Origin: Rhodoligotrophos defluvii
GTDB lineage: Bacteria > Pseudomonadota > Alphaproteobacteria > Rhizobiales > Im1
Assembly: GCF_005281615.1 (NCBI RefSeq)
Contig: NZ_SZZM01000004.1
Location: forward strand, 124,001 to 188,000
Length of the DNA stretch: 64,000 nt
Direction: 5' to 3'
The first letter of the stretch is position 1. Every line of letters begins with the position of its first letter. Below are positions 32,778-52,895 of this stretch, one piece after another. A model generated the notes under the pieces. It saw only the letters and a program-made list of their open reading frames with translations, was not told where the DNA came from and did not search any database. Both the position numbers and the translations under genes were made by a program.

Positions 32778-33431
32778 ATGACGCAATCAGAGCTTGCGTT
32801 TAACACGCTTCAGCGACTGATCGAGGAAGGGCGGCTCAAGCCTGGCTCGATGATATCAGAACGGGGTTTGATGGCGATTACGGGTCTCGGGCGCACCCCG
32901 GTGCGCGAAGCCATCCAACGTCTCGAACGCAACTACATGGTTCGCGTCCACCCGAGCAAGGGAATCGAAATTCCGGCGAACTCGGTCGAGGATCAACTCA
33001 GCAGGCTCGAGGTCCGCAGAGCAATGGAAGTCCTTGCGGTGGGGCTGGCCTGCAAGCGAGCGACGGCGAAAGATCTTGAACTGATTGAGGCAATGGCGAC
33101 GGCGCTGAAAGCTGATTTTTCGTTCAGCGACTATGCCGAAACGGTACGCCAAACCCACAAGCTGATCATTGATTCCGCGCATAACCCCTACTTGGAGGCT
33201 CTGATGAAGCCTTTGCAGGCGCTGTCGCGGCGCTTCTGGATGACGCATGTTCGCGACGAGAACGCCGAGGTTTTGCGCGGCAAAACCCTGCATCGTGAAA
33301 TTCTTCTGGCAATCGCGGAACGCAATGTCCGTCGGGCTGAAGCGGCATCGCTGGCGCTGAACGATTACCTGGTCGAGTTCGCGTTGAGGACTGTCAACGA
33401 GAATGTCAGGACCGGCGGAGGGTGGTTTTGA
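32778..33431 (+). CDS. GntR family (FCD-type) transcriptional regulator
   Basis: 217 residues, ATG 32778. Winged helix: LQRLIEEGRLKPGSMISERG then LGRTPVREAIQRLERNYMV. The C-terminal all-helical FCD domain includes LEVRRAMEVLAVGLACKRA, TVRQTHKLIIDSAHNPYLEA and LHREILLAIAERNVRRAE, whose Asp/His positions normally bind a metal and a carboxylic-acid ligand. It is divergent from the first Liv operon and probably represses it. Confidence 0.9.
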   Translation: MTQSELAFNTLQRLIEEGRLKPGSMISERGLMAITGLGRTPVREAIQRLERNYMVRVHPSKGIEIPANSVEDQLSRLEVRRAMEVLAVGLACKRATAKDLELIEAMATALKADFSFSDYAETVRQTHKLIIDSAHNPYLEALMKPLQALSRRFWMTHVRDENAEVLRGKTLHREILLAIAERNVRRAEAASLALNDYLVEFALRTVNENVRTGGGWF

Positions 33432-33582: not shown

Positions 33583-34356
33583 TCAGCCGTGCGCTTCTCG
33601 TCCAAGATAGGCAGAAATGACGTTATGATCGGCCATTACGGTCGCCGGATCGCCTTCCGCAAGAGATCTGCCGTAGTCCAAGACATGGACCCGGTCCGCA
33701 AGATCCGAGACCATTTGCATGTCATGTTCGATCCAGAGCATGGGGAGGTTGCGCTCTGCCTTTATCTTCAACATGAAGAACGCCAGGTCTTCGCGCTCTG
33801 GTTGGGTCAAGCCCGCCGAAGGTTCGTCGAGCAGCAGAATGGAGGGCTCGGCACACAGCGCGCGGGCGAAGCCGACGATCTTCTGCAGACCGAAGGGCAA
33901 GGTTCCTACCTTTCGATCGCGAAATTTTTCCAGCTCAAAAAAGCCGATCATCTCGTCGACGGCCTGTCGGTGCCGCTCTTCCTCGCGCCGCATCTTGCGC
34001 GTGCGCAGCATCTCTGACCAGATGCCCGTGTCCATGAGGCTGTGACGGGCTGTCAGCAGACTGTCGGCGATTGTCATCTGGGCGAACATTTCGCCGTGTT
34101 GGAAGGTGCGCCTCACTCCACGCGCGGCAATGTCATGCGGCGTCAAACCGACCAGGCTGGTGTCATGGAAGGTAATCGTGCCAGAAGGCCTGTAGATGCC
34201 GCTTATGCAGTTGAGCACGCTCGTTTTTCCAGCACCGTTCGGCCCTATCAGAGCGAACAGGTCGCCGTTGCGCACACTGAACGAAACCTCGTTCAGTACC
34301 GTCAGGCCCCCGAAGCCAAGGCTGACCTTCTCGAGAACGAGTGCCGTCAACTCCAA
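33583..34356 (-). CDS. LivG-type ABC transporter ATP-binding protein (second Liv system)
   Basis: 257 residues. The likely start is TTG 34356, because GGAGGAG lies 7 bases upstream and the protein then begins LELTALVLEKVSLGFGGL, the normal LivG opening; an upstream alternative at 34383 lacks this. Walker A GPNGAGKTS, VRRTFQHGEMFAQMTIADSL, LPFGLQKIVGFARAL as signature and Walker B ILLLDEPSAGLTQ. Last gene of the long minus-strand cluster; it overlaps the LivF stop by 10 bases. Confidence 0.9.
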   Translation of the reverse strand: MELTALVLEKVSLGFGGLTVLNEVSFSVRNGDLFALIGPNGAGKTSVLNCISGIYRPSGTITFHDTSLVGLTPHDIAARGVRRTFQHGEMFAQMTIADSLLTARHSLMDTGIWSEMLRTRKMRREEERHRQAVDEMIGFFELEKFRDRKVGTLPFGLQKIVGFARALCAEPSILLLDEPSAGLTQPEREDLAFFMLKIKAERNLPMLWIEHDMQMVSDLADRVHVLDYGRSLAEGDPATVMADHNVISAYLGREAHG

Positions 34357-35150
34357 CTTGAAACTCCTCCGGCAGCGCGGCAATCCCGGTAGCTCTTGCG
34401 CGTGCCATTGTTGGCGCCGAGATAAATGCGCTGGACATCCGCATTCTCGGCAAGTGCCTTCGGCGTCCCTTGCGCCGCAAGGCGGCCGTTTTCGAGCACA
34501 TAGACATAGTCGGCCATTCGCATGGCCAGCCCGGCGCTTTGCTCGACCAGCAACAGCGTCAGCTTGATCTCACGTCTGATTTCCAGCAACCGTTCCGCCA
34601 GCTCTTGTACCACGATGGGCGCAAGCCCCAGTGAGAGCTCGTCGATTGCAAGGAGGCGCGGCCCGCAGACGATGGCAGCAGCGATCGCAAGCATCTGACG
34701 CTCGCCTCCCGAAAGCAGCCCGGCTTCCTTGCGCCTCAGATGGGCCAATCGGGGGAAATAAGTGTAAGCCAATTCCTCGCGACGCGCTCTGTTGGAAGCG
34801 CTCCACCGAGATGGTCCTACTGCCGCGATGTTCTCGCTCACGGACAGGTTCGGGAAGACCTTGTCACGCTCCGAAACCAGCACGAGCCCCGCTGAAGTGA
34901 TCTGATGTGGCAAAAGGCCCAGCAACGAAGTTCCGCAAAATGTGATGGCGCCACGCCGGACACGCGCCCTGTCGAGTGGAATAAACCCGGTGATTGCCCG
35001 CAGCGTCGAGGTCTTCCCGGCGCCATTCGCCCCCAAGATGCTGACCACCTGTTGCTCGGCGACGTGAAAGCTCACATCCTGGACGGCGATGATCGCTTTC
35101 TTGTACGTGACCTCGAGGGAATCCACCTTGAGCAAAGGCTGCTCGCTCAT
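34347..35150 (-). CDS. LivF-type ABC transporter ATP-binding protein (second Liv system)
   Basis: 267 residues from ATG 35150; upstream codons of the same frame lie inside livM. Walker A GANGAGKTS, SERDKVFPNLSVSENIAAVG, signature LSGGERQM and Walker B LLAIDELSLGLAP, where Leu follows the catalytic Glu (DEL instead of the usual DEP). Its tail after the fold (about 15 residues) overlaps the start of livG. Confidence 0.9.
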   Translation of the reverse strand: MSEQPLLKVDSLEVTYKKAIIAVQDVSFHVAEQQVVSILGANGAGKTSTLRAITGFIPLDRARVRRGAITFCGTSLLGLLPHQITSAGLVLVSERDKVFPNLSVSENIAAVGPSRWSASNRARREELAYTYFPRLAHLRRKEAGLLSGGERQMLAIAAAIVCGPRLLAIDELSLGLAPIVVQELAERLLEIRREIKLTLLLVEQSAGLAMRMADYVYVLENGRLAAQGTPKALAENADVQRIYLGANNGTRKSYRDCRAAGGVSSWS

Positions 35151-36196
35151 GGCCGCCTCCCGAACCGCATTCTCAGATCGCCCCACATTCCAGCCAGTCC
35201 ACTTGGCTTGAAAAGCAGGAACGCGATCATGACGGCTCCGAAAGCCGCGTAATTCACGGCAAAGACCGAGCCCGCATACAAATCGGCTCCCGGCAGAAGA
35301 TCCAGCGCCGCCTCGATCGCATAGGGCATCAGGACGACGAAGAATGCGCCGCAGATCGCTCCAGCGAGAGATCCCATTCCGCCGATTATGACCATCGCGA
35401 TATACTGGATCGAGACGAAAATCGAGAACGCTTCGACCGATACGAAGCCGCGGTAGTATGCGAAGAGAGCGCCTGCTATCGCAGTTATGGATGAACTGAA
35501 GACAAACGCCAGGAGCTTGAATCGAGCAACGTTTATGCCGAGCGCGGACGCTACGGTCGGGTGGGCGTGCAGGGCGAGCCAAGCCCTGCCCGTACGGGCG
35601 TGGACAAGGCGCCAGCACAACAGATACGCCAAGCTCAGTGCCGCCACCAAGACGAAGTACCAGGTCCGCCCGCCATAGATCTCGTATCCGAAGAGAACGG
35701 GCGGATCGATCAGGATCCCGCTCGAGTAGCCACGTTTGACCTCATATTCGGCTCCTCCATAGAGCACCACAAAATGCAAGGCGAGCGTGCTTACGGCGAG
35801 ATAGACGCCGCGGACCCGCAACGACGGGAGACCAAAGATGAAGCCGAGTGCCGCGCCGGCGAGGCCGGATGCCGGCAAGGTGATCCAGAACGGCGCGGAA
35901 AACTCGCGGAACAGAATGCCAGTGGTAAAGGCTCCTGCTGCCATTAGTCCGGCGTGGCCAAGCGAAATCTGGCCGGCGATACCGGTGAGGATCATCAGCG
36001 AAAGCGCGCCGATCGAAGCGAGCAGAAACTGGCATGCAAGATCGACCAGGAAAGGCGATGCGAAGAATGGCGGCAGGGCTACAACGGCGGCCCACAGCGG
36101 CAGAACCAACCACCTGAGTTCACGCCGGCCGGCACCGAGGGGCGTTGCGGCCGCGCCCGGCCGCCCTGCCAGATCCGGTGAAACCAGGTCAGACAC
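35147..36196 (-). CDS. LivM-type ABC transporter permease (second Liv system)
   Basis: 349 residues, GTG start at 36196. A soluble N-terminal tail of about 28 residues precedes the membrane segments. Landmarks are MILTGIAGQISLGHAGLMAA, SLRVRGVYLAVSTLALHFVV and YIAMVIIGGMGSLAGAICGA. It overlaps livF by 4 bases and livH by 8. Confidence 0.92.
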   Translation of the reverse strand: MSDLVSPDLAGRPGAAATPLGAGRRELRWLVLPLWAAVVALPPFFASPFLVDLACQFLLASIGALSLMILTGIAGQISLGHAGLMAAGAFTTGILFREFSAPFWITLPASGLAGAALGFIFGLPSLRVRGVYLAVSTLALHFVVLYGGAEYEVKRGYSSGILIDPPVLFGYEIYGGRTWYFVLVAALSLAYLLCWRLVHARTGRAWLALHAHPTVASALGINVARFKLLAFVFSSSITAIAGALFAYYRGFVSVEAFSIFVSIQYIAMVIIGGMGSLAGAICGAFFVVLMPYAIEAALDLLPGADLYAGSVFAVNYAAFGAVMIAFLLFKPSGLAGMWGDLRMRFGRRP

Positions 36197-37061
36197 GGTC
36201 GAGTTCCTCGCGAGAGCCGAAGATGCCCCAAGGCCGCACTATGAGCATTGCGATCAGGATAAGGAACGGCACCACATCGGAAAGCAGCGGATCGACATGT
36301 TGAATGAGCGTGACCTCGATGAACGAGACGATCAGCGACCCGATCACTGCGCCAAAGAGACTGTCGAGGCCGCCGACGAGGGCGGCCGGAAAGGCCTTCA
36401 GGCCGATCATCATCATCGAATTGTTGAGGCCCGAGTCGAGGGCGATGAGCATTCCGGCCAAAGCGCCGGTGAAGGTCGATATGCCCCATGTCATGGCGTA
36501 GATCCCGCCCAAATTGATGCCTCTTTGGCCGGCGAGCAGCGTGTTCTGTCCGGCGGCCCGCATTCTGATGCCCCACCGGGTCAGCTTTAGAAACGCGAAC
36601 AGCGCCGAATAGACGACCGCGCATGTCGCGACCAGGAAGAGCGACATGAGCGAGATTCGCGCACCAAGAAAGATCTCCACTGAGGGATTGGCGACTTTTA
36701 GGGCCGCAGCTGGATATTGCTGCTGCGCGGACCAGATGAGAGTGACCAGTCCGCGGATGAGGATGCCCAGCGCAATTGTGGTCAGTACCGCAGCCAGCAC
36801 GGACTCCCCCGTCATGCGGCGCATGAGCATTAGGTAGACGAGAACGCCGACCGAGAGGCTCAACAGCGCCGCAACCGCGAGCGCGACTGCAGGATTGCTC
36901 GATACGGAAGCGGCAGTCGTCAGCAGCAGGTAAGCGCCAAGCATCATGAGCTCACCGTGCGCCAGGTTAAGCACGCGGCTCACCTTGTAGATAAGCACGT
37001 ATCCACAGGAGATCAGCGCATAGATAGATGCGAGAACCACGACATTGACGGCGAGCTGCAT
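36189..37061 (-). CDS. LivH-type ABC transporter permease (second Liv system)
   Basis: 290 residues, ATG 37061 with AAAGGG upstream. Landmarks: LASIYALISCGYVLIYKVSR, VLNLAHGELMMLGAY and LKAFPAALVGGLDSLFGAVI. It sits 27 bases after the binding-protein gene. Confidence 0.92.
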   Translation of the reverse strand: MQLAVNVVVLASIYALISCGYVLIYKVSRVLNLAHGELMMLGAYLLLTTAASVSSNPAVALAVAALLSLSVGVLVYLMLMRRMTGESVLAAVLTTIALGILIRGLVTLIWSAQQQYPAAALKVANPSVEIFLGARISLMSLFLVATCAVVYSALFAFLKLTRWGIRMRAAGQNTLLAGQRGINLGGIYAMTWGISTFTGALAGMLIALDSGLNNSMMMIGLKAFPAALVGGLDSLFGAVIGSLIVSFIEVTLIQHVDPLLSDVVPFLILIAMLIVRPWGIFGSREELDRV

Positions 37062-37088
37062 CGCCCTTTCCCCCTTCGGCCGGCACGA

Positions 37089-38252
37089 CTATTCGACGTC
37101 GTATCCGCGCCAGTCGCGAACGATGCGAACACGCCCACTTTGCCTGTCCCATCGGTAGACCCGATAGGACTGCTTGAGGCGGAAGTGGTTTTCGGGAGAC
37201 CACTGGATCGGGCCTGCACGCAAGCCCTTGGTGTCGATGCTGAGATTGGCCATGGCCTCTGCGAGGCCCGCGCCCGTGACAGGCCAACCGGCCTTCTCGA
37301 AGGCTGCCTCTATGGCCATGCCGGCGATCCAGCCTTCCGCCATCTGATCCGCCGGAAAGGTCGCCTTCGCGGCTGCGGCCGCTGCGGAGATCTCTTCATG
37401 CACCGGAAGGCGCTCGCTGAAAAGTGCATTGGTCCCGATGGCATAGAAGCCTTCGTCGCCTAGCCGAGCCAATTCCTGCTCGGCTTCGATATGCGCCCAG
37501 GTAATGTAATTGCCAGTCCAGCCCAGCTTGCGCAGGCTCTCGAATGTCCTCACTTCGGTCACCCACGGCGCCCAGGTATAGACCCAATCGGGCCTGGTCC
37601 GGTTTAGGCTGGTTGCGAAGGAGGTGTAATCTGCGGAGGCCGGTGGAATAATCTGCTTGTCGGTGACCTTCATCCCCCGTTCACCGGCAAGCTTCTCCGC
37701 GAAATCGATCCCGGCGCGCGAAATTGGAATCGTCGCTGCCACCAGACCGAGAGTGACCTTTTCCTCGCCGGACTGCGACTCTATGAAGTCAATCGATGCG
37801 AGACTGTCATATGTCGCCGCATACCCGGTGGTGCAGAACAGGGTCGGCTCGGCCGGCGGAAAGACCTCCTCCGGACACACCGAACTGGCGAACAGCAGGG
37901 GCACGCCCGCCCGCACGGAGTCGGCGATCATGGGCGCGAAGGTGGAAGATAGGCTGGCATTGACCAACAGCACCACCTGATCCTGGTTGATCAGACGCTT
38001 CGTATTCGCCGCTGCCTTGGACGGTTCGCCTTGATCGTCCAGCAAGATCAGGTCGATCTTACGGCCATTGAGGCCGCCATCGCCGTTGAGCCTGTTGATA
38101 TAGAGGCTCAGTCCTTCCATGGCGGCAGCGTAGTTTCCCGACGCAGGTCCGGTGAGCGCTGCGCTCACCCCGACCTTGTAAGCCTCGTCAGCCAATGCAG
38201 GTCCAGACACGCAGGCCAGCAGCAACACGGCCATCTTTGCCTTGAGCTTCAC
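37089..38252 (-). CDS. branched-chain-type ABC transporter substrate-binding protein (second Liv system)
   Basis: 387 residues. GTG 38252 is favoured because AAAGGGGTGGGG precedes it at a suitable distance and it opens a signal peptide (MKLKAKMAVLLLACVSGPALA); GTG 38261 abuts the ribosome site. The mature protein has YKVGVSAALTGPASGNYAAA and GDGGLNGRKIDLILLDDQGE, type I receptor features. Lying directly after 3-hydroxyanthranilate dioxygenase, it may bind an aromatic or amino acid related to that pathway. Confidence 0.88.
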   Translation of the reverse strand: MKLKAKMAVLLLACVSGPALADEAYKVGVSAALTGPASGNYAAAMEGLSLYINRLNGDGGLNGRKIDLILLDDQGEPSKAAANTKRLINQDQVVLLVNASLSSTFAPMIADSVRAGVPLLFASSVCPEEVFPPAEPTLFCTTGYAATYDSLASIDFIESQSGEEKVTLGLVAATIPISRAGIDFAEKLAGERGMKVTDKQIIPPASADYTSFATSLNRTRPDWVYTWAPWVTEVRTFESLRKLGWTGNYITWAHIEAEQELARLGDEGFYAIGTNALFSERLPVHEEISAAAAAAKATFPADQMAEGWIAGMAIEAAFEKAGWPVTGAGLAEAMANLSIDTKGLRAGPIQWSPENHFRLKQSYRVYRWDRQSGRVRIVRDWRGYDVE

Positions 38253-38305
38253 GATCCCCACCCCTTTTTATGTTCGTAGCGTCAGCTTGCTTCATGTCGC
38301 GGCCG

Positions 38306-38878
<573 letters not shown>

Positions 38879-39733
38879 TCAGGACCAACCTGACCTGTAG
38901 GTCGCGTAGACTGGGCTCCAGCCAAATGTTTCGCGCATGCGACTGTTGCTGGCCCGGCAGGATGCCCAGACCACAGCGCCACCCGGTTTCGGGCTCGGTC
39001 CGCGCTCTACGGCGGCGATGTGCTGGAAGAGCGTCGCATAAGGTACCGGCTCATCGTCTACGACATTGAATACGGTGCGTTTCGGCTCATGCTCGAGGGC
39101 TGTGATGACGGCTCGCGCATAGTCCACAACGTGTATGAGCGAGATGAATCCACGACCATCTCCCGGAAGCGACAGGGAGCCGTCACGTGCCGCGGCACGC
39201 CACGCTTCGTCTTGCCCTGCATGGGGGCCGTACAGAATCCCGCCGCGTAGTATCGTCCAGCCCAGGCCGCTTTCCTTGACCAGTCGCTCCATTTCGATAG
39301 AGGACTCCGTTGCCCGCGTGGGATGCGGCGGGGCGTCCTCGTCGCGGAGCTGATCCGTCCCATCGGCGGTCAGATGGACGACACCCTGTTGTATGTAGCG
39401 CTCCACGCCCAGGTCGCGACAGGCGTTCAGCAGGTTGGCCGTTCCCTCGGTCCGGATCCGGTCGTTGAGTGTCCAGTCTACCGGTTGGCCAGGACGCGGA
39501 ACGGCTGTCGCGACATGAATGGCGGCATCGCACGAGCGAAGTGGCGCCCGCAGATCAGCCGGACTGAGGATGTTCCCCACGGCGCATTCGATGCCGAGTT
39601 GGCTCAGCCATCCAGCGGCTTCTCCTTCGAGAACCAGGGCAACAACCTTGTGGCCGCGCTCAACCAGCCGGGGCATCAGTTGCCGGCCGATGACGCCCGT
39701 CCCTCCGACGACGAATACCCGCATCGCGTTCAT
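38879..39733 (-). CDS. NAD(P)-binding epimerase/dehydratase-like protein (extended SDR)
   Basis: 284 residues. The Rossmann nucleotide motif is MRVFVVGGTGVIGRQLMPRL; CDAAIHVATAVPRPG and the C-terminal GWTILRGGILYGPHAG and VDYARAVITALEH follow the extended/atypical SDR pattern. The usual catalytic YxxxK is not evident: the region reads RATESSIEMERLVKESG. It may therefore be a reductase with an altered site or a non-catalytic binding protein. Its start overlaps the NTF2-like gene by 4 bases. Confidence 0.8.
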   Translation of the reverse strand: MNAMRVFVVGGTGVIGRQLMPRLVERGHKVVALVLEGEAAGWLSQLGIECAVGNILSPADLRAPLRSCDAAIHVATAVPRPGQPVDWTLNDRIRTEGTANLLNACRDLGVERYIQQGVVHLTADGTDQLRDEDAPPHPTRATESSIEMERLVKESGLGWTILRGGILYGPHAGQDEAWRAAARDGSLSLPGDGRGFISLIHVVDYARAVITALEHEPKRTVFNVVDDEPVPYATLFQHIAAVERGPSPKPGGAVVWASCRASNSRMRETFGWSPVYATYRSGWS

Positions 39734-40152
39734 GCCGCCTGCTCACGGGCACCGATTTGCGAGAGCAAGCTGCCGAGATCGTAGTACGTCCTTTCGCCTG
39801 CGAGCAGACCGTCCCGAAAAGTGAGAAAGCACACGAGCGGGAAGTCTATCCGGCGTCCTGTCGGTTCTTCACCAACGAAAGAGCCCTGGTGTCTTCCCTG
39901 GTACCGGGCTTCCGAAACGATGTTGTTGTTGTCGAGGCGGTGCCGCTTTTCGCTCACCACGATCAGATCGAAAGCTTTCCACCAGAGCCCGTAATACTCA
40001 GCCGCCCCCTTGTGCCCCACATAATTGATCATCCGAGCCCGGTCTTCGAACAGACATTCGGGGTGGAGCGTCGCGAGGGTAGCCTCCATGTCATGTTCGT
40101 TCTCAGCAAGCAAATGCTGCTTCAGGATCGCAAGGTTCTTTTCGAACTCCAT
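39730..40152 (-). CDS. NTF2/SnoaL-like fold protein
   Basis: 140 residues from ATG 40152, with GGGAG 8 bases upstream; the open frame continues upstream but without family sequence. A cone-shaped NTF2-like barrel is suggested by LLAENEHDMEATLATLHPEC, AAEYYGLWWKAFDLIVV, RYQGRHQGSFVGEEPTGRRI and CFLTFRDGLLAGERTYYDLG. Relatives act as small isomerases, cyclases or hydratases, or only bind ligands. Coupled by a 4-base overlap to the SDR gene, so the two may act on one intermediate. Confidence 0.8.
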   Translation of the reverse strand: MEFEKNLAILKQHLLAENEHDMEATLATLHPECLFEDRARMINYVGHKGAAEYYGLWWKAFDLIVVSEKRHRLDNNNIVSEARYQGRHQGSFVGEEPTGRRIDFPLVCFLTFRDGLLAGERTYYDLGSLLSQIGAREQAA

Positions 40153-40259
40153 GATGGAACTCCCACTCTTTATTCGCGAGCAGGGATAGCGGTCACGAGC
40201 AAAGCCTGGAAGTTCCAAAAACCGCGATACGGACTGGGCCAATCACGACCCGCGCGCGG

Positions 40260-41717
40260 TCAGGCGAATTGTGGAAAGTGGTCTGCGATGGCGTCGTAAA
40301 GGCGCCCCACGAGTGCTTTGGCGCGTCTCTCGTGAATGTTGGTGAAGCCGAGGATGAGCCCTTGCTTCTGGGGACCTGACCAATAGCGGTCAGACAGCGC
40401 CTCCACCGCCAGCCCGCTTCGATAAAGAAGCCGGCTGATCTCGCTATCGTGTCCCACCTGCGGAAGCCTGGCGATCAGATGCATTCCGCCCTGGTTCTGG
40501 TCGACCGACAGGCGATCGTCGAATCTCATCGAAATGGCGCGCAGCAAAGCGATGCGGCGCTTGCTATAGAGGTCGCGCATCCGCTTGACATGTCTTGCAA
40601 AATACCCTTCGTTCATAAAATCGGCGACAATGGCCTGCTCGAAGGGTGACCGGCCGGCATTGGCTGACCTAGCCGCAGCAGCTAGCCGCGCGAGGAGGAT
40701 CTCCGGAGCAACCATGTAGCCCAGACGCAAAGCCGGAAAGAGGACCTTGCTGAAGCTGCCGACATAGATAACGCGATCAGATCGATCCATGGCCTTCATT
40801 GCGGGCTGGCGGACACCGCAATAGTGAAACTCGCCGTCGAAGTCGTCTTCTACGATCCAAGAATGGTTCGAGCCGGCCCAATCCAGAAACAGCGATCGCC
40901 GCGCGACCGTCATGGTCGTGCAAAGCGGCTGCTGATGCGCGGGCGTTAAAATCGCAAGGGACGCGTTGGGGCAGTGCATCATTGCCTCCGAGAGATCGGC
41001 GCCGCATTCGTCTATCTCGAGCGGCACCAACCCGGCTCCCATTGACCGGAGGAGGAATTGGGCACGAAAATAACCGGGGTTTTCGAACCAGACCGGATTG
41101 CCAGGCTGGAGCAGGGCGCGCGCGATCAACTCGAGCGCGCCCTGGTAGCCATTCGTGATGATTATGTTCTCGGCCGAGCACTGAATTCCCCGTGAGACGA
41201 GAAGATAACTCGCGATCGCGCGCCGCAAAGGTTCAAATCCGAGCTCGTTGGGGTAGTCCATCTGGCGCGGACTCATTCTGCGTGCCCTGCAACTCGCCAG
41301 CCTCGCCCATGTCTTGTATGGAAATTGGTCAAGCGCGGGAAGGCCGATCTGAAACGGCAGCGGTTCGGCTTTTTCCCCATTTATTCCGGTCGCTTCGGCG
41401 CTCAGGCTCCTCTCCTCGGTCGCTTCAGCGCCGGACGATAAACCTTGGTCAGTGACGACGGTGCCAACGCGCCCTTGAGCAACCACCAACCCTTCGCCCT
41501 GGAGCCTGGCATAGGCTACGTCGACCGTACCCCGTGCGATTCCAAGGTGTGAAGCAAGAGCGCGGGACGAGGGCAATCGATCGCCAGCCCCAAGAACCCC
41601 TTTTTGGATGGCGCCACGGACACGTTGATAGATCTGCTCGTGGAACGGCATTACCGCATCACTCGTGAGTGGCTGCTGAAGCTGAAGAAGACGACTGTCA
41701 CGCGCTGTGAATTCCAT
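40260..41717 (-). CDS. MocR-family transcriptional regulator (GntR-aminotransferase fusion)
   Basis: 485 residues from ATG 41717 (AGGA 7 bases upstream). The winged helix reads PFHEQIYQRVRGAIQKGVLG, LPSSRALASHLGIARGTVDV. The aminotransferase-like domain has IITNGYQGALELIARALLQP, SWIVEDDFDGEFHYCG (PLP-contact Asp) and the PLP Lys in YVGSFSKVLFPALRLGYM. It lies inside the twelve-gene cluster, 224 bases after the aspartate-dehydrogenase-like gene, so it may control the genes downstream from an internal promoter. A fragment of another MocR gene lies at 46440. Confidence 0.88.
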   Translation of the reverse strand: MEFTARDSRLLQLQQPLTSDAVMPFHEQIYQRVRGAIQKGVLGAGDRLPSSRALASHLGIARGTVDVAYARLQGEGLVVAQGRVGTVVTDQGLSSGAEATEERSLSAEATGINGEKAEPLPFQIGLPALDQFPYKTWARLASCRARRMSPRQMDYPNELGFEPLRRAIASYLLVSRGIQCSAENIIITNGYQGALELIARALLQPGNPVWFENPGYFRAQFLLRSMGAGLVPLEIDECGADLSEAMMHCPNASLAILTPAHQQPLCTTMTVARRSLFLDWAGSNHSWIVEDDFDGEFHYCGVRQPAMKAMDRSDRVIYVGSFSKVLFPALRLGYMVAPEILLARLAAAARSANAGRSPFEQAIVADFMNEGYFARHVKRMRDLYSKRRIALLRAISMRFDDRLSVDQNQGGMHLIARLPQVGHDSEISRLLYRSGLAVEALSDRYWSGPQKQGLILGFTNIHERRAKALVGRLYDAIADHFPQFA

Positions 41718-41941
41718 CGTACAATCCTGCGATGGCAGCCCCACATCCAGATCGATACATACTCGTCTCGGCGATGCTGACGCGTCACCCACTCCCAGTC
41801 TATCGCGGGTGCGCGAGGGCGTTCAATCATGGCAAAACGCCGGCAGGCCGACATGGCCCTCCTCGACGCTTATGGGTGGCCGGAGTCATCTCGACCAAGG
41901 CCATGTGCAAATCGGCGCCGCGCCACTCCGACATCAGCCTG

Positions 41942-42778
41942 CTATAGCGCCACCGGCAAGAACCTGTTCTCGAGAGTTCGTACTATGCTCAAGGCTGTCA
42001 TCAGAGAAGATTTTGGATTGTCCTTCACCGGCACGGCGTCGATCTTGAATTCCAGGGATCCAAACACGCCGCGGGCGCGGACGTAGTGTTCATTTCTCTG
42101 CAGCTTTGGATCGGCGATCAGCGTGCTCCGTATCTGCACAACGTCTCCAACCGCCAGGCGGATGGTTGCCGCTACATTTGCATTTTGGGGAAACAGTTCC
42201 GCCGCCCGTTCCGCATTTCCCGTAAACACCACGACACGTTCGTCGCAGCCATCGAGGTCGATAAAGTCATCCGCCGCGGTTCCGCGCCATGCCACGGGAG
42301 GCTTGGCGATTACGTGCTCGACGGTTTCCACCCCCGCTATTGCGGCGGCGCGCAGGCCGTCAATACCGCCGATTGCGCCAGGTATCACAAGCAACTGGCG
42401 GCCTGCGGCCTGCGCCAGCTGCAATATCTCTGACCTGAGTGCTTGATCCATCAGCGCCGCCGTGGAAACGAGGGCGAAATCGCTCGGAATCGAGAATGCA
42501 GCGACCGCCCATGGCGCCACCGCTGAACGGCCAGCGATCTCCAACACCAGGTCGGGTGCCAGGTCTTTCAGCTCGCTCGGCTTTGCAACAACCCTGGCGC
42601 CTTTGGGAAGATCGCTGCGAGGCACGGTCACATGTCGGACGACCACGCCGACAACGTCTGCGGCCACGTCGCGATGCTGGCTCAAAAGCTGGCTGACATG
42701 CCGTGCGAGAGCACCCCAGCCGACGATGCATATGCGGCCAGGCCTGCGGGCTCTCGCATCGGTAGCAAGTCCCGTCAT
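41942..42778 (-). CDS. aspartate dehydrogenase family protein (NadX-like)
   Basis: 278 residues. N-terminal Rossmann motif ICIVGWGALARHVSQLL; the family block LLVIPGAIGGIDGLRAAAIA; ELFPQNANVAATIRLAVGD; and a C-terminal DPKLQRNEHYVRARGVFGSL then NPKSSLMTALSIVRTLENR. Known relatives oxidise L-aspartate to iminosuccinate (NadX) or act on related amino acids in catabolic clusters. The usual 'GxGxIG' loop is altered (GWGALA). It starts 4 bases after the DapA-like gene, implying that both act on one substrate. Confidence 0.85.
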   Translation of the reverse strand: MTGLATDARARRPGRICIVGWGALARHVSQLLSQHRDVAADVVGVVVRHVTVPRSDLPKGARVVAKPSELKDLAPDLVLEIAGRSAVAPWAVAAFSIPSDFALVSTAALMDQALRSEILQLAQAAGRQLLVIPGAIGGIDGLRAAAIAGVETVEHVIAKPPVAWRGTAADDFIDLDGCDERVVVFTGNAERAAELFPQNANVAATIRLAVGDVVQIRSTLIADPKLQRNEHYVRARGVFGSLEFKIDAVPVKDNPKSSLMTALSIVRTLENRFLPVAL

Positions 42779-42782
42779 CGAC

Positions 42783-43739
42783 TCAGCCCACGATCAGCCC
42801 GCAACGTTCAAAGGCGGTACGCGTCGCGATCTTCTCCTCGTTGGTCAGCGGCAACAATGGCATCCGAACCGTTCCGCCTACCTGGCCAAGAAGTTCCTGC
42901 CAGTACTTCTGATGGGCATGCGGCTTCTCGGCGGGACGTGTCGACCTCAGAGCAGCACGGACCGGGTCGAGGCTGTCGCGGATGCGCCGCGCCTCCTCTC
43001 TTTTCCCTGCGAAGGCGAGATCGGTATACTCGCGCATGCGCTTATCGCGCGCGGTTTGCAGCAGGTAGGGAGGAGAAGAGCAGAGGTAAAGCTGCCACCC
43101 CAGATCGAGGATATTGTCCAACCACTCTTCTTCGGACGCCGTGCTCACGAGAATTCGGTCGCCGGCAAGCCTCGTCAGCTCGGCATACATGTGCCGCGGG
43201 ACGCTGTATTTGATGGCAACGACGTTCTCGATGTCTGCCAGACGATTGCAGAGTTCCGGACTCATGAGGTATCCGCTGTCGGGATGGCTCCAGAGCGCGA
43301 TTCCGATGTCGACCGCCTGCGCGATGGCCGAGTAGTAGTTCAGAAGCGTCTCGTCGTGAGCCTTGAAGAAGTGCAGCACGGGCGCATGCACCACGATGTA
43401 GTCCGCGCCCACCGCCTGAGCATGGCGTGCCAGCTCGATCACGGTGTCTAGGTTCTGATCGGAGCACGACATGATCGTTGCCGCTCTGCCTGCACACGCA
43501 TCGACTGCAAGTTCGAAACTGCGCTTGCGTTCTTCCAGTGACATGGAAAAAAATTCGCCCTGTTTACCGGCGATGAAGAGACCGTCTATAGACAGATCTT
43601 CGACCCAGTGGTCGACGTTCTTCCGCCAGCCCGGCTCGTCGATGGCTCCGGTCGGCGTGAACGGCGTCAACGCCGCCGCCCAGATGCCTTTCATATGTTG
43701 CCGCGCGTAGGCCTTGGCGTCCTTCTTGGCGTACTTCAT
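42783..43739 (-). CDS. dihydrodipicolinate synthase/N-acetylneuraminate lyase superfamily protein with altered active site
   Basis: 318 residues from ATG 43739 (GAGG 6 bases upstream). It has the TIM-barrel opening KGIWAAALTPFTPTGAIDEP and the Schiff-base Lys177 in VVAIKYSVPR. The pyruvate-carboxylate loop that is normally GTTGE reads AGKQGEF (Lys59, Gln60), and the place of the catalytic Tyr reads APVLHFFKAHDE without Tyr. It is thus an aldolase/lyase-type enzyme unlikely to use pyruvate in the standard way. Forty-six bases downstream of the aldehyde dehydrogenase, which could oxidise an aldehyde it releases. Confidence 0.85.
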   Translation of the reverse strand: MKYAKKDAKAYARQHMKGIWAAALTPFTPTGAIDEPGWRKNVDHWVEDLSIDGLFIAGKQGEFFSMSLEERKRSFELAVDACAGRAATIMSCSDQNLDTVIELARHAQAVGADYIVVHAPVLHFFKAHDETLLNYYSAIAQAVDIGIALWSHPDSGYLMSPELCNRLADIENVVAIKYSVPRHMYAELTRLAGDRILVSTASEEEWLDNILDLGWQLYLCSSPPYLLQTARDKRMREYTDLAFAGKREEARRIRDSLDPVRAALRSTRPAEKPHAHQKYWQELLGQVGGTVRMPLLPLTNEEKIATRTAFERCGLIVG

Positions 43740-43785
43740 CGAGGTCCTCACACCCGAATTTGGCGTGAACTGCTGGCCGGCATGC

Positions 43786-45216
43786 TCAGGCCATCCGATG
43801 GGAGACGGTCTTGACAATGGTGTAGTTCAAGATGCCTTCCGCGCCCCCTTCGCGCCCATAACCACTCTCTTTCACGCCGCCGAAAGGGGTCTCCGCCACG
43901 GATGCCTCCAACGTATTGATGGAGAGATTTCCTGCCTCGATGCAATCAGCGAGATAATCCACGTTGCGGGCAGAATGGGTGAACCCGTAAGCGGCCAGTC
44001 CGAAGGGGAGGGCGTTGGCCTTCTCGACCGCCTCTTCAAGAGACGCCACCGGATTGATGATAGCCAAGGGGCCGAAGGGCTCCTCTCGCATAGCCCGTGC
44101 GTCGTCGGGAAGTTCCGCGAAGACGGTGGGGGCAAAGAAATAACCCCGGTTGCCCAGACGGTCCCCTCCGGTGAGAAGTCGGCCTCCCTTCGCGCTCGCA
44201 TCCGCAACAAGACCCTCCAGTGCCCCCACGCGACGCTGGTTGGCCAAAGGGCCTACATTCGTATCGGCATGAAGGCCGTTGCCGACCTTCATCGCGCGCG
44301 TGCGTTCCACGAAGGCCTTTGAAAAGGCGTTGAAAACATCCTGATGCACAAAAAAGCGGGTCGGCGAGGTGCAGACCTGGCCAGCGTTTCTCATCTTGCG
44401 AACGGCCGACATTTCGGCAGCCGCAGCGGGATCGAAATCGTCGCAGACGATTACGGGCGCATGCCCGCCGAGTTCCATCAACACCGGCTTCATGTGGCGT
44501 GCCGCAAGTTCGGTCAGCCGCTTGCCAACTGCCGTCGAGCCCGTGAAAGCGACCAGTCGGACCTGCTCTCGTGGGATGAGGAACTCGGAAACGCGGGCGG
44601 GAACACCAAAGACGAGGTTCAGCACACCGGGCGGCAGTCCTGCATCGTGAAAGGCGCGCGCGATATGAAGGGCACCGGCCGGTGTTTCTTCGGAGGCCTT
44701 GATGATGATCGAGCAGCCGGCGCCGAGCGCGCCCGCAATCTTTCGACACGGCTGGCTCATGGGAAAGTTCCACGGCGAGAAAGCGGCCACGGTGCCGATC
44801 GGCTGATGAAGAACGATGTAACGGATACCCGGGCCGCTCGGGATTACGCGACCATAGGTGCGCTGCCCTTCGGCAGCGTCCCATTCAATGAATTCACAGC
44901 CACGGATTACCTCAAGACGTGCCTGTTCGAGCGGCTTGCCGTGTTCCAAGGTGATCGCCAGCGCAATTTCTTCGATCCGCTGGCGCATGAGCGAGGCCGC
45001 GCGGAGCATGATCTGCGCACGAGCCGCAGGCGCTGTCCGACTCCATGTGGCAAAGCCGATGGCAGCGGCTTCGAGCGCATCGGCTAAATCTACGTCGTCC
45101 GCTAACGGCACGTCGCCGATCGTCGTTTCGTCGGCCGGGTTGATGACGGGCTCACAAGACGCGGTGTCACGCCAATGGCCGCCGATATAAAGCTGCAGCC
45201 GCGGATAGTACGTCAT
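43786..45216 (-). CDS. NAD(P)-dependent aldehyde dehydrogenase, succinate-semialdehyde dehydrogenase type
   Basis: 476 residues from ATG 45216, which gives the normal family start MTYYPRLQLYIGGHWRD; upstream GTG/ATG codons add a few residues. Catalytic features: FSPWNFPMSQP (oxyanion Asn), LMELGGHAPVIV (general base Glu), NAGQVCTSPTRFFVH (nucleophile Cys). NADP-type contacts are in IIIKASEETP and FTGSTAVGKRL. First gene of the twelve-gene minus-strand cluster and divergent from a LysR regulator. Confidence 0.9.
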   Translation of the reverse strand: MTYYPRLQLYIGGHWRDTASCEPVINPADETTIGDVPLADDVDLADALEAAAIGFATWSRTAPAARAQIMLRAASLMRQRIEEIALAITLEHGKPLEQARLEVIRGCEFIEWDAAEGQRTYGRVIPSGPGIRYIVLHQPIGTVAAFSPWNFPMSQPCRKIAGALGAGCSIIIKASEETPAGALHIARAFHDAGLPPGVLNLVFGVPARVSEFLIPREQVRLVAFTGSTAVGKRLTELAARHMKPVLMELGGHAPVIVCDDFDPAAAAEMSAVRKMRNAGQVCTSPTRFFVHQDVFNAFSKAFVERTRAMKVGNGLHADTNVGPLANQRRVGALEGLVADASAKGGRLLTGGDRLGNRGYFFAPTVFAELPDDARAMREEPFGPLAIINPVASLEEAVEKANALPFGLAAYGFTHSARNVDYLADCIEAGNLSINTLEASVAETPFGGVKESGYGREGGAEGILNYTIVKTVSHRMA

Positions 45217-45315
45217 CTGGGCTATCATCCTCACCGACCGAAAAACCGGGCCGTGCCGCGATCGACGCGACGATTGAAAAACAGTTCAATCTATTCGAGA
45301 ATGCTATATTGTGTT

Positions 45316-45325
45316 ATCAATTGAT
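45316..45325. promoter_or_regulatory. palindrome in the divergent lysR control region
   Basis: ATCAATTGAT, a perfect 10-base palindrome, lies 27-36 bases before the lysR start, in an AT-rich stretch (about 45280-45345). LysR proteins bind dyads of this kind near their own promoter. No exact T-N11-A box could be fixed. Confidence 0.35.
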
Positions 45326-45351
45326 GCCTTCTTCTTATAAATGGGCCGCTC

Positions 45352-46263
45352 ATGCAGCGTGTCACGCTCAGACAGATTGAAAGCTTCATCGCTGTCGCGG
45401 AGACCGGCAACTTCTCGCGGGCGTCGCGTAGACTGGGGATTGCCCAGCCGGCGCTGTCCCTCGCCATAAAGGAACTTGAAGCCGAATTGGGGTTGCGGCT
45501 GTTCGATCGAACCACACGAAAGGTGCAGTTGACCGAAGCAGGTAGCGAGTTTTTCGCGTCCGCTGCGCCGATCATGGAAAGTCTTCAGCTGGCACTGGCC
45601 AATATGAGCAACTTGGCGCAGCTCAGGCGTGGGCGCATCAAGGTGGCAGCGCCGCCACTCCTCGCGTCGGCGATCTTGCCCTTGGCGTTGGCCAAATTCC
45701 GGCGCGAGCATCCAGGAATCACCGTTGAAGTTCTGGATGTCGACACGGGAAAAATCGTGGAAAGCGTCACGGCGGGCACCGTCGACTGCGGGCTAGGCAC
45801 TTTTTCCCCGGAAGAGCGCGAGGTCACACGCAAGGTCCTGGCGCGAGATAAGCTACTTCTATTCTGCCCGAAGGATCACGGGCTGGCCGAGCAGCCCCTT
45901 GTTCGATGGGAGCAGCTTGCAGGGTTTCCGCTTGTGACCTTGACCCGCAACAGCGCCATCCGCCTACTTGTTGAGATAGGGTTCGAAACGGCGGGCGTTG
46001 CCGCCAAGCCATCATACGAAGTCTCTCACATCACAACAGCCCTGGCGTTCGTAGGCGCAGGGGTTGGCATCAGCGTTCTGCCGACCTACGCCTTGACTGC
46101 GGTTCAAGACCGATCGCTCAAAGGGGTTCCGCTGGTTGAACCGGAAATGAGCAGGGAGATCGCATTGATCTGGGCGAGCGGCCGTTCGCTGTCGCCCGCG
46201 CTTGCAAAGTTCTCAGAATATATCGCAAAAGCATCAAGATCTCTTATGCCGGAGGAACGATAG
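45352..46263 (+). CDS. LysR family transcriptional regulator
   Basis: 303 residues, ATG 45352. N-terminal helix-turn-helix is typical: VTLRQIESFIAVAETGNFSR, ASRRLGIAQPALSLAIKELE. The effector domain has IKVAAPPLLASAILPLALAK, VDCGLGTFSPEERE and VGAGVGISVLPTYAL. Divergent from the aldehyde dehydrogenase at 45216, so it is the likely activator of the cluster from 45216 to 33583. Confidence 0.93.
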   Translation: MQRVTLRQIESFIAVAETGNFSRASRRLGIAQPALSLAIKELEAELGLRLFDRTTRKVQLTEAGSEFFASAAPIMESLQLALANMSNLAQLRRGRIKVAAPPLLASAILPLALAKFRREHPGITVEVLDVDTGKIVESVTAGTVDCGLGTFSPEEREVTRKVLARDKLLLFCPKDHGLAEQPLVRWEQLAGFPLVTLTRNSAIRLLVEIGFETAGVAAKPSYEVSHITTALAFVGAGVGISVLPTYALTAVQDRSLKGVPLVEPEMSREIALIWASGRSLSPALAKFSEYIAKASRSLMPEER

Positions 46264-46439
46264 AGTTGTCGAAAACAGTTGCCGGCCCGCTATGCACTGA
46301 TGGAAGCTTTTCATCTAACGACTCCCCGCTTCCTTTCCTATGGCGGGCCTCTGCAACTTCTCAGCCCGACATACGGTGTGTTGTTCCGGATGCGGTTCCG
46401 CCGGTGGGTCGCGTGATCATCGGCTTTGTGCCTTCATAG

Positions 46440-46864
46440 TGCATCCGCCCACGCTCTCCCAGGCAGCTCTTGCGGACTTCATGGAGGAAGGTCATTTCGG
46501 CCGCCATCTCCGCCGCATGCGCGTGCTTTATGGCGAGCGGGCGCAAACGCTGAAGGATGCGGTCGGTCGCTATCTCGGCGGTGTGCTTTCGGCTCCGGAA
46601 CCACAAGCGGGAATGCACATGGTGGGCTGGCTTCCCGAGAACATGGATGACCGGCAGGTCGCCTCCGCTGCCGCGCTGGAAGGAATCGAAGCCAGGCCAC
46701 TGTCGCTCTATGGAATGGAGCCTCTCAAGCCGGGGCTGGTCCTCGGCTTCGCGACCGTGCCGGCCTCCGAGACGAACGAAGGCGTCATCAAGCTCGCACG
46801 CGCCATCGAAACAGTGCTGCGAGCACGAGGTGGCCGCCCAGCGCTCTGCGCGGAACCACACTAA
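46440..46864 (+). pseudogene. C-terminal fragment of a MocR-family regulator
   Basis: About 140 codons open and in frame to a TAA at 46864, matching the end of the MocR aminotransferase domain: PPTLSQAALADFMEEGHFGR, HLRRMRVLYGERAQTL, PQAGMHMVGWLPENM and EPLKPGLVLGFATVPASE. No GntR domain or PLP-Lys region precedes it; codons before 46440 do not resemble the family. It is a 5'-truncated relic and differs in sequence from the intact MocR at 40260. Confidence 0.8.
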
Positions 46865-47991: not shown

Positions 47992-48068
47992 AATTCTCCC
48001 ATACACTGAATCCAACCAACCCTCCAGTTGGATTTGCACTTGACGGCGCGACGCCTTAGTGGTGTAAA

Positions 48069-48082
48069 TGCAAACGATTGCA
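48069..48082. promoter_or_regulatory. LacI-family operator upstream of the M24-fold gene
   Basis: TGCAAACGATTGCA fits the LacI-family operator pattern TGNAANCGNTTNCA completely and is nearly a perfect palindrome. It sits 13 bases before the ATG at 48095, where a bound repressor would block transcription of the plus-strand operon. Confidence 0.75.
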
Positions 48083-48094
48083 AAAGAGGGTTCC

Positions 48095-49405
48095 ATGGAC
48101 AGCAGGGTTATAGAGCCGCGGCACATCCGCGAAGGCGAAGTCGAAACGCCATCCACTCATTGGAACTGGGGGCGCGCAATTCCCGCGCCTGGCCACATGG
48201 GGGTGGACTTCGAAACCCGGGTCGATTTCCGCAGGCTGCAGGCCTACCGCCTCGCCCGCGCGCGACGGGCTCTGAAGATGTCGAACTGCGGCGCTCTCCT
48301 GCTCTTCGACGTCAACAACATTCGCTACGTCACCTCGACCAAGATCGGTGAATGGGAGCGCGACAAGTTCTGCCGTTTTGCGCTCCTTGCCGCCGATGGC
48401 GACCCGATTTTGTGGGACTTCGGCTCGGCCGCCGTCCACCACCGCCTGTACTGCGATTGGATGCCGGTGGAAAATTTCCGCGCCGGCATGCTCGGCATGC
48501 GCGGCACTGTTCCGCCCGATGTCGGGCTCATGCGCAAGCATGCCCGCGAGATCGCAGCGCTTCTCCGCGACGCCGGAGTGGCCGACATGCCTGTCGGCGT
48601 CGATGTCGCCGAGGCGGCGATGTTCTTCGCGCTTCAGGAGGCGGGCATCAAGGTGGTGGACGGGCAGCAGATTATGCTGGATGCCCGCCAGATCAAGAAT
48701 ATCGACGAGATTATTCTGCTCAACCAGGCAGCCGCCATGGTCGATGGCGTCTACCACATGATTTATGAGGAGCTGAAGCCGGGTGTGCGCGAGAACGATA
48801 TCGTCGCGCGCGCCAACAAGATGCTCTACGAAATGGGGTCGGATGACGTCGAGGCGATCAACGCCATATCGGGCGAGCGCTGCAATCCGCACCCGCACAA
48901 TTTCACCGATCGGCTGTTGCGCCCCGGCGACCAGGCCTTTTTCGACATTCTTCAATCCTACCAGGGCTATCGCACCTGCTATTACCGCACCTTCAATGTC
49001 GGCCGGGCCACGCCCGACCAGCGCGATGCCTATGTGAAGTGTCGGGAATGGCTCGATGCGGCGATCGCGCTCATCAAGCCCGGCGTCTCGACAGATACCG
49101 TCGCCCGCGCCTGGCCAAGAGCGGAGGAATTCGGCTTCGGCTCCGAACTCGACGCCTTCGGCCTCCAGTTCGGCCACGGGCTCGGCCTCGCGCTGCACGA
49201 GCGGCCAATTATCTCCCGGCTCGTTTCGCTCGATAACCCCATGGAGATCAAGACCGGAATGGTGTTCGCGCTGGAGACCTATTGCCCGGCCAAGGATGGC
49301 TTTTCCGCCGCGCGCATTGAGGAGGAAGTGGTCGTGACCGACACGGGCTGCGAGGTCATCTCGCGCTTCCCCGCCGAAGAGCTGCCCATTGCCAATGCCT
49401 ACTGA
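48095..49405 (+). CDS. M24-family (creatinase/prolidase/DddP fold) protein with incomplete metal site
   Basis: 436 residues from ATG 48095 (AAGAGGG just upstream); the in-frame ATG at 48068 overlaps the operator. The creatinase-type N-domain has GALLLFDVNNIRYVTSTKIG and RFALLAADGDPILWDFG, wording that recalls DddP (DMSP lyase) and other M24B proteins. In the pita-bread domain the expected ligands are Asp284 (AFFDILQ), His361 (QFGHGLGLALHERP), Glu394 (VFALETY) and Glu409 (AARIEEEV). The second Asp is Cys295 (GYRTCYYRTFNVG). Probably not an ordinary aminopeptidase; a C-N, C-S or C-C cleaving role in the operon's pathway is possible. Confidence 0.82.
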   Translation: MDSRVIEPRHIREGEVETPSTHWNWGRAIPAPGHMGVDFETRVDFRRLQAYRLARARRALKMSNCGALLLFDVNNIRYVTSTKIGEWERDKFCRFALLAADGDPILWDFGSAAVHHRLYCDWMPVENFRAGMLGMRGTVPPDVGLMRKHAREIAALLRDAGVADMPVGVDVAEAAMFFALQEAGIKVVDGQQIMLDARQIKNIDEIILLNQAAAMVDGVYHMIYEELKPGVRENDIVARANKMLYEMGSDDVEAINAISGERCNPHPHNFTDRLLRPGDQAFFDILQSYQGYRTCYYRTFNVGRATPDQRDAYVKCREWLDAAIALIKPGVSTDTVARAWPRAEEFGFGSELDAFGLQFGHGLGLALHERPIISRLVSLDNPMEIKTGMVFALETYCPAKDGFSAARIEEEVVVTDTGCEVISRFPAEELPIANAY

Positions 49406-49424
49406 GCGGTTGCGGGAGGAAACC

Positions 49425-50465
49425 ATGTCTGCACGGAAGGGAACGGCGGCGCAGGTCATGCCGGAGGCAGTTCTGGCCAATGATGACATCGGGTTGGCCA
49501 CGCGGCTCAAGCTCTATCGTATGCAGGTCGAGATGCGCGATTTCGAGAAACGCGCCTACGACCTGTTCCTGCAGAATCTGGTGAAGGGCACCAGCCACCT
49601 TTCCCTCGGGCAGGAGGCCATTGCCGCCGGTTTTGGCGCGGCCATGCGGAAGGATGACAAGTCGTTCTGTACCTATCGAGGCCACGCGCACACGCTCGCG
49701 CGTGGCGTGCCGCCCGAGTCGGTGCTTGGCGAGCTCATGCAGCGCGACAACGGGCTGATGCGCGGCAAGGGCGGCTCCATGCATCTGACCTCGGTAGAGC
49801 ACGGGGTTCTCGGCTCCTACGCGATCATCGGCGCGCATCTCTGCATCGCCAATGGGTCGGCTTGGCGCGCCCAGTATCTGGGAGAGGATGACGTCTCGGT
49901 CTGCTTCTTCGGCGACGGCACCACCAATATCGGCGCGTTCCACGAGGCTCTCAATTTTGCCGCCGTGTGGTCGCTGCCGGTGATCTTCGTCTGCGAGAAC
50001 AACCTTTACATGGAATACACGCCAATCGCCGATGTGACCCCCGTCGAGCATCCGGCCGCCGACCGCGCCAGCGCGTACGGCCTGCCGTCGATCGTCATCG
50101 ATGGCAACGATGCCGACATAGTCTATCGCACGGCGCGCGCAGCGCTCGACAAGGCACGCGCCGGCAGCGGGCCGTCGCTCATCGAATGCAAAACCTATCG
50201 GCACTCGGGCCACTCCCGCGCCGACCCGGCGAAATATCGGCCGGAAGGCGAGCTCGAACGTTGGCTGGAGCGCGATCCCGTCAAGATCTATCGCGCCCGG
50301 CTGCTGGAGTTCGGCGTGAGCGAGGATGAAATCGCGCGCATAGAGCAGGAGTCGCGGCGGCTCGTCAATGCGGCAACGGAAGCCTGCAAAGCGGCCCCGC
50401 CGCCGCCGGCCGAGCTTCTCACGACCGATGTCTATGCCGATGGGGTCTGGTCATGGCGGAACTGA
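49425..50465 (+). CDS. 2-oxoacid dehydrogenase complex E1 alpha subunit (thiamine-diphosphate dependent)
   Basis: 346 residues, ATG 49425 with GGGAGGA upstream. TPP/Mg site: CFFGDGTTNIGAFHEALNFA and FVCENNLY. Other blocks: GTSHLSLGQEAIAAGFG, YRGHAHTLARGV, GKGGSMHL and the phosphorylation-loop-like YRHSGHSRADPAKYR. It is of the PDH/acetoin dehydrogenase alpha type and would decarboxylate a 2-oxoacid or acyloin. Its end overlaps E1 beta by 13 bases. Confidence 0.92.
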   Translation: MSARKGTAAQVMPEAVLANDDIGLATRLKLYRMQVEMRDFEKRAYDLFLQNLVKGTSHLSLGQEAIAAGFGAAMRKDDKSFCTYRGHAHTLARGVPPESVLGELMQRDNGLMRGKGGSMHLTSVEHGVLGSYAIIGAHLCIANGSAWRAQYLGEDDVSVCFFGDGTTNIGAFHEALNFAAVWSLPVIFVCENNLYMEYTPIADVTPVEHPAADRASAYGLPSIVIDGNDADIVYRTARAALDKARAGSGPSLIECKTYRHSGHSRADPAKYRPEGELERWLERDPVKIYRARLLEFGVSEDEIARIEQESRRLVNAATEACKAAPPPPAELLTTDVYADGVWSWRN

Positions 50466-51430: not shown

Positions 51431-51438
51431 GGCCTCTT

Positions 51439-52887: not shown

Positions 52888-52895
52888 GCCCGGCC

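Follow-up and report, generated by a model that had tools for sequence, protein, structure and literature searches.

Introduction

In the protocatechuate 4,5-cleavage pathway, the oxidized meta-cleavage product is hydrated and cut by a retro-aldol reaction to pyruvate and oxaloacetate. Bacterial catabolism of 3-hydroxyanthranilate along the canonical onb route begins with 3-hydroxyanthranilate 3,4-dioxygenase (HAO), which is followed by a decarboxylase, a dehydrogenase, a deaminase and then the oxalocrotonate enzymes (PMC5817917). This nba/onb pathway for 2-nitrobenzoate and tryptophan proceeds via 2-amino-3-carboxymuconate 6-semialdehyde (ACMS), aminocarboxymuconate semialdehyde decarboxylase (ACMSD) and 2-aminomuconate. 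Here, we analyze a stretch of 64,000 nucleotides from Rhodoligotrophos defluvii (the window; positions 124001-188000 of contig C4, from a genome of 5.49 Mb in 20 contigs), in which an HAO gene lies among twelve minus-strand genes running from 45234 down to 33583, with a plus-strand LysR gene divergent from them. Comparison with related loci in other genomes makes it probable that HAO, an aldehyde dehydrogenase (ALDH) or a molybdenum (Mo) aldehyde oxidase, a DapA-like protein and an NadX-like aspartate dehydrogenase constitute a second, ACMSD-independent module for 3-hydroxyanthranilate catabolism. We regard the ring cleavage as a known step and what follows it as a lower pathway that has yet to be described. 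A literature search returned the canonical pathway only and no description of this module, although most subscription journals were outside its reach, so an existing description is possible.

Results

The HAO of the window, which is the only one in the genome, scores above both curated cut-offs (275 against 220 bits and 264 against 146 bits) and matches the solved bacterial HAO 1yfu at 264 bits. It keeps the Fe ligands H51, E57 and H95, the substrate residues R47, R99 and E110 (1yfu numbering) and both CxxC motifs of the rubredoxin-like pair. Given this score and the full catalytic set, the opening of 3-hydroxyanthranilate to ACMS is very likely its reaction. In a tree of 83 rows, with modest support at some nodes and several long branches, the DapA-linked HAOs, including that of the window, group together (1 change, 82% of bootstrap trees).

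When the DapA-like protein was used in a pattern scan, 496 related stretches were returned, and the best 80, which are 74-83% identical and come from other genomes, mostly of Hyphomicrobiales and Rhodobacterales, were kept as loci. HAO is found in 76 of these loci, LysR in 62, an NadX-like gene in 57, ALDH in 54 and an Mo subunit in 20; two loci without an adjacent HAO carry it elsewhere in the same genome. Across 289 genomes of the class, HAO occurs in 28, the DapA-like protein (E <= 1e-100) in 17 and both in 16. HAO is thus present in 16/17 genomes with the DapA-like protein and in 12/272 of the others (Fisher p 7e-18; both Fisher p values given here overstate independence because the loci are phylogenetically related). 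The gene order varies. Plasmids of Shinella and Roseateles carry a compact kynU-ALDH-(LysR)-DapA-HAO-aspartate dehydrogenase cluster, a Phaeobacter inhibens plasmid carries HAO-ALDH and kynU together with LysR-AspDH and DapA, and two class members show Mo-enzyme-DapA and NadX-LysR-HAO. The original prediction, made from the sequence of the window alone, had proposed to look for such conserved co-occurrence and would have been refuted by its absence; it withstood this check, as HAO, the DapA-like protein, the NadX-like protein and ALDH are found together in dozens of genomes. Its suggestion that ACMS may be handled by the co-encoded enzymes is most likely right. The kynureninase in a relative's module scores 312 against a TIGR01814 cut-off of 246 bits, and its location within relatives' modules ties the module to 3-hydroxykynurenine and 3-hydroxyanthranilate.

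The lower enzymes of the canonical route are missing from this setting. ACMSD is absent from all 80 DapA-like loci and, in whole-genome searches, from all 17 DapA-like genomes, that of R. defluvii included; one of these has no PF04909 protein at all. Among the 12 HAO genomes that lack the DapA-like gene, the same search found ACMSD in five, each time directly beside HAO, which serves as a positive control. These five proteins are 64-69% identical to the copy in genome G149, which itself scores ~436 bits to 2HBV, and three of the five loci also carry 2-aminomuconate semialdehyde dehydrogenase (AMSDH) and a RidA-type deaminase. For 2-aminomuconate deaminase (RidA), the 80 loci yielded a single 30% match. 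No orthologous AMSDH was detected in them, the only AMSDH-like sequences being ALDHs of ~34% identity, and downstream 2-aminomuconate or 4-oxalocrotonate genes were likewise not found in the relative loci. The PF04909 proteins of the R. defluvii genome were considered as ACMSD candidates and rejected, since those with a curated match resemble gamma-resorcylate decarboxylase or 4-sulfomuconolactone hydrolase and the others have none. No kynureninase was found in this genome (no TIGR01814 match). The local absence of ACMSD and kynurenine genes noted in the original prediction is correct, and for ACMSD and kynureninase it extends to the whole genome; its view that this is not the known 2-nitrobenzoate or kynurenine pathway through 2-aminomuconate is supported. 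The module and the nba/onb pathway have HAO and ACMS in common, as well as an upstream kynureninase in some genomes. In place of the nba/onb lower enzymes, the module has an ALDH or Mo oxidase, a DapA-like lyase and an aspartate dehydrogenase.

The ALDH of the window is closest to SSADH and alpha-ketoglutaric-semialdehyde dehydrogenase, which are of the dicarboxylate semialdehyde type, and is 33% identical to the AMSDH of the canonical control cluster. The Mo subunit found in relative loci belongs to the xanthine-dehydrogenase/CO-dehydrogenase family and has the Pfam aldehyde-oxidase hammerhead and MoCo domains. Of the 80 loci, 54 have only the ALDH, 20 only the Mo enzyme, none both and six neither (Fisher p 7e-14), and most of the six lie on short contigs. 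The two enzymes often occupy the same place beside the DapA-like gene. Because these unrelated aldehyde-oxidizing enzymes swap for one another, we argue that the module needs an aldehyde oxidized. We see the exchange as a clear instance of non-orthologous replacement and as a pointer to the chemistry. Quinolinate, which had been raised as a possible intermediate, gains no specific support, since some aldehyde-oxidizing enzyme is nearly always present.

The DapA-like protein matches PF00701, and its AlphaFold model (pLDDT 89) has a fold with TM 0.8-0.9 to DHDPS and N-acetylneuraminate lyase (NAL). K180 is invariant and aligns with the Schiff-base lysine of NAL. The protein thus shares fold and lysine with the DapA/NAL/KdgD superfamily, from whose known members it differs in its ~25% identity and in the replacement of the substrate-carboxylate motif GT/STGE by GKQGEFF. 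K62 and Q63 of GKQGE are invariant among 24 homologues, and the motif would suit a more highly carboxylated substrate. The subfamily stands apart from the known members and is tightly conserved (64-84% within). A true DapA (4-hydroxy-tetrahydrodipicolinate synthase) was ruled out, as the protein scores 92 bits, far short of the 206 bits that the equivalog model for DapA requires, and has GKQGE instead of the T-T-G-E pyruvate motif. Its start is better set at 43739, where relatives show a conserved MKYxxKDAKAY, than at the TTG at 43817.

The NadX-like protein scores 222 bits, above the 177-bit cut-off of the subfamily model NF009828, and falls below the equivalog models. It keeps the N229-x-H231 and NPKSS motifs of solved aspartate dehydrogenases, which are conserved in at least 95% of 50 sequences. 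Family and active-site motifs are the same as in the NadX-type L-aspartate dehydrogenases (Thermotoga maritima 1j5p; 2dc1), whereas the NadX considered here belongs to a catabolic module whose host genomes lack nadA. As the R. defluvii genome lacks nadA (quinolinate synthase), its NadX does not feed that enzyme.

All twelve co-directional genes and the divergent LysR gene described in the original prediction are present (Table 1), whereas their assignment to a single pathway does not hold. MocR, SnoaL and the epimerase (SDR), as well as the neighboring M24 and LacI genes of the window, occur in 0/80 relative loci, and the first three were rejected as pathway members on this ground. The SnoaL-epimerase pair is also found without the module, in Ideonella (with IS-disrupted MocR-type neighbors) and, away from HAO, in another genome. 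Liv-type transporters are common in the relative loci yet not orthologous (~30% identity), and other module copies have TTT, TRAP or other ABC transporters instead. As judged from these comparisons, the cluster is a conserved core (LysR, ALDH, DapA-like, NadX, HAO) combined with a transporter and a local insertion.

Table 1. Features of the HAO locus (window coordinates)
Feature	Coordinates	Strand	Remark
LysR regulator	45352-46263	+	core; in 62/80 relative loci
Divergent intergenic region, 117 bp	45235-45351	.	probable control region
Aldehyde dehydrogenase (ALDH)	43786-45234	-	core module
DapA-like class I (Schiff-base) lyase, predicted	42783-43739	-	core module, best module marker
NadX-like aspartate dehydrogenase	41942-42778	-	core module
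MocR-type regulator	40260-41717	-	outside conserved module
SnoaL/NTF2-fold protein	39730-40152	-	window-specific passenger
NAD-dependent epimerase/reductase (atypical SDR)	38879-39733	-	window-specific passenger
3-Hydroxyanthranilate 3,4-dioxygenase (HAO), bacterial two-metal type	38306-38860	-	core module
LivK	37089-38261	-	LivKHMFG ABC transporter (33583-38261), probable uptake system
LivH	36189-37061	-	LivKHMFG ABC transporter
LivM	35147-36196	-	LivKHMFG ABC transporter
LivF	34347-35150	-	LivKHMFG ABC transporter
LivG	33583-34350	-	LivKHMFG ABC transporter

Within the ALDH-DapA-NadX block and within the SnoaL-SDR-HAO-LivKHMFG block, neighboring genes overlap or are separated by at most 47 bp. 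Around MocR the spacing is wider: the upstream gap is ~224 bp, or 149 bp if translation begins at the GTG at 41792, and the downstream gap is 107 bp. The cluster may thus be transcribed as two or three units. Promoter and terminator scans of the locus gave signals at or below chance level, including a sigma-70-like match at 45274-45302 (+) in the ALDH/LysR intergenic region that is not above chance, and a search for a LysR dyad found no strong one. Beside the LysR gene, an open reading frame (ORF) at 46340-46864 (+) resembles the C-terminal third of a MocR regulator (36% identity to the cluster MocR) and lacks the DNA-binding half; it is probably a MocR remnant.

Elsewhere in the window, a single ORF at 25407-26426 (-) combines an FlK (fluoroacetyl-CoA thioesterase-like) domain with a DsbA-like (DSBA) domain. 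Next to it lie an AMP-ligase gene (26423-28033) and a second Liv operon, whose GntR/FCD regulator is at 32778-33431 (+). On the other side, 48068-54203 (+) encodes an M24 peptidase-family protein with distant similarity to DddP and, after it, E1 alpha/beta, an aldehyde dehydrogenase and an E2 acyltransferase, which form a separate 2-oxoacid dehydrogenase-type catabolic operon.

Discussion

The best overall explanation of this locus, and the one toward which we lean, is a 3-hydroxyanthranilate catabolic module that by-passes ACMSD and the 2-aminomuconate route. Following ring cleavage by HAO, the ALDH, or elsewhere the Mo aldehyde oxidase, would convert ACMS to 2-amino-3-carboxymuconate, as suggested by the exchange of the two aldehyde oxidizers. 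Unlike ACMS, this product would no longer be able to cyclize to quinolinate. In its imine form, the HOOC-C(=NH)-CH(COOH)- half would amount to a C3-substituted iminosuccinate. The DapA-like lyase would then hydrate the C4=C5 double bond and perform a retro-aldol cut at C3-C4, giving iminosuccinate (or oxaloacetate and ammonia) and malonate semialdehyde. Reduction of the iminosuccinate by NadX would yield L-aspartate. LysR would control the module, and a Liv-type transporter would import the substrate; as the R. defluvii genome has no kynureninase, 3-hydroxyanthranilate probably arrives from outside through the Liv system. The proposed logic is that of the protocatechuate 4,5-cleavage pathway, in which the semialdehyde is oxidized and the tricarboxylate hydrated and aldol-cleaved. 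The module would differ in having an amino for the hydroxy group, a class I DapA-type lyase for the class II aldolase, and a final imine reductase. The exact order of the steps and their products are put forward tentatively. The same caution applies to the central idea that a new hydratase-aldolase of the DapA superfamily splits the oxidized ring-cleavage product directly into malonate semialdehyde and iminosuccinate, and that an NadX moved from NAD synthesis to catabolism keeps the nitrogen as aspartate; we regard this idea as possible and short of an even chance.

Several observations weigh against this pathway, in addition to the phylogenetic relatedness that inflates the Fisher tests. The R. 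defluvii genome lacks kynureninase as a source of 3-hydroxyanthranilate. The class to which the ALDH belongs is promiscuous, and the enzyme may have malonate semialdehyde rather than ACMS as its substrate. At the threshold used, just 57/80 loci gave an NadX, which is partly due to truncated contigs, and conservation of the window NadX is lower, at ~43%, compared with ~80% for the DapA-like protein, ~73% for ALDH and ~65-79% for HAO. Lastly, a lyase working through a Schiff base would transiminate C2 and might set ammonia free on its own, depriving NadX of iminosuccinate.

The main rival to the proposed pathway keeps the same module and changes the order of events. The DapA-like protein would be a Schiff-base decarboxylase/deaminase that replaces ACMSD, acting on ACMS or its acid with release of CO2 and ammonia; further lyase or hydratase steps would follow, and the substrate of the ALDH or Mo enzyme would be either ACMS or an aldehyde formed later, for instance malonate semialdehyde. 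Such a role would have precedent in the decarboxylating dehydratase KdgD, a member of the DapA superfamily whose NCBIfam models match the window protein and for which 4ur7 is a related structure. In addition, the C3 carboxylate is beta to the imine and would be easily lost, and the ALDH most closely resembles short dicarboxylate semialdehyde dehydrogenases. However, this order does not account for the conservation of an aspartate dehydrogenase whose iminosuccinate site is intact, and the loci are without the downstream 2-aminomuconate or 4-oxalocrotonate genes, which makes it a serious but unlikely alternative.

HAO could instead serve NAD synthesis. ACMS would then cyclize and supply NadC with quinolinate, and the excess would be disposed of by the other enzymes. 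Consistent with this, nadA is absent from 6/6 module genomes (G000, that of R. defluvii, and G052, G136, G144, G215 and G225) and present in 12/14 controls. However, with no kynureninase in its genome, R. defluvii lacks the known route from tryptophan to 3-hydroxyanthranilate. Moreover, an ALDH or Mo oxidase, a lyase, an aspartate dehydrogenase and a high-capacity transporter are not needed for NAD, and some module copies reside on plasmids with transporters, so we consider a role in NAD synthesis improbable. Similarly doubtful is the suggestion of the original prediction that the substrate is an analogue of 3-hydroxyanthranilate. The missing kynureninase would accord with an analogue, and the window-specific SnoaL protein and epimerase could prepare an unusual precursor. 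However, every substrate- and metal-binding residue of HAO is kept, and because relatives carry kynureninase inside the module, 3-hydroxyanthranilate itself is the likely substrate. The gaps around MocR and the occurrence of the SnoaL-SDR pair elsewhere without HAO might suggest that two unrelated operons, ALDH-DapA-NadX and MocR-SnoaL-SDR-HAO-Liv, have been joined by accident. This is very improbable and for the core genes already largely refuted, as HAO is linked to ALDH, the DapA-like protein and NadX across many genomes whatever the inserted genes.

If the proposed catabolic module is correct, bacteria would have a second way to mineralize 3-hydroxyanthranilate and 3-hydroxykynurenine, which are bioactive tryptophan metabolites, by a route that avoids both quinolinate formation and ACMSD. 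It would also provide functions for the DapA-like family and for a catabolic NadX, which are now annotated as lysine-synthesis-like and NAD synthesis, respectively, in many genomes (496 stretches), and would set right automatic annotation in which HAO by itself is taken as a sign of the ACMSD route or of NAD synthesis.

The neighbors of the module in other genomes may include quinolone-type feeders. In 15/80 loci, an FAD monooxygenase and a homologue of 3-hydroxy-4-quinolone 2,4-dioxygenase (265 bits to 3ibt) adjoin the module, often together with an HGGYW alpha/beta hydrolase (for example, L007 5687-6946 and downstream, and L037 5613-6398). This suggests that 8-hydroxyquinolones such as xanthurenate may be converted to 3-hydroxyanthranilate in these organisms. 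Separately, a canonical ACMSD cluster (L122 1-3150) also contains an NadX-like gene, a VOC-like gene and a classical DapA-type gene beside kynureninase, and DapA/NadX pairs may therefore be used in a second, different catabolic setting.

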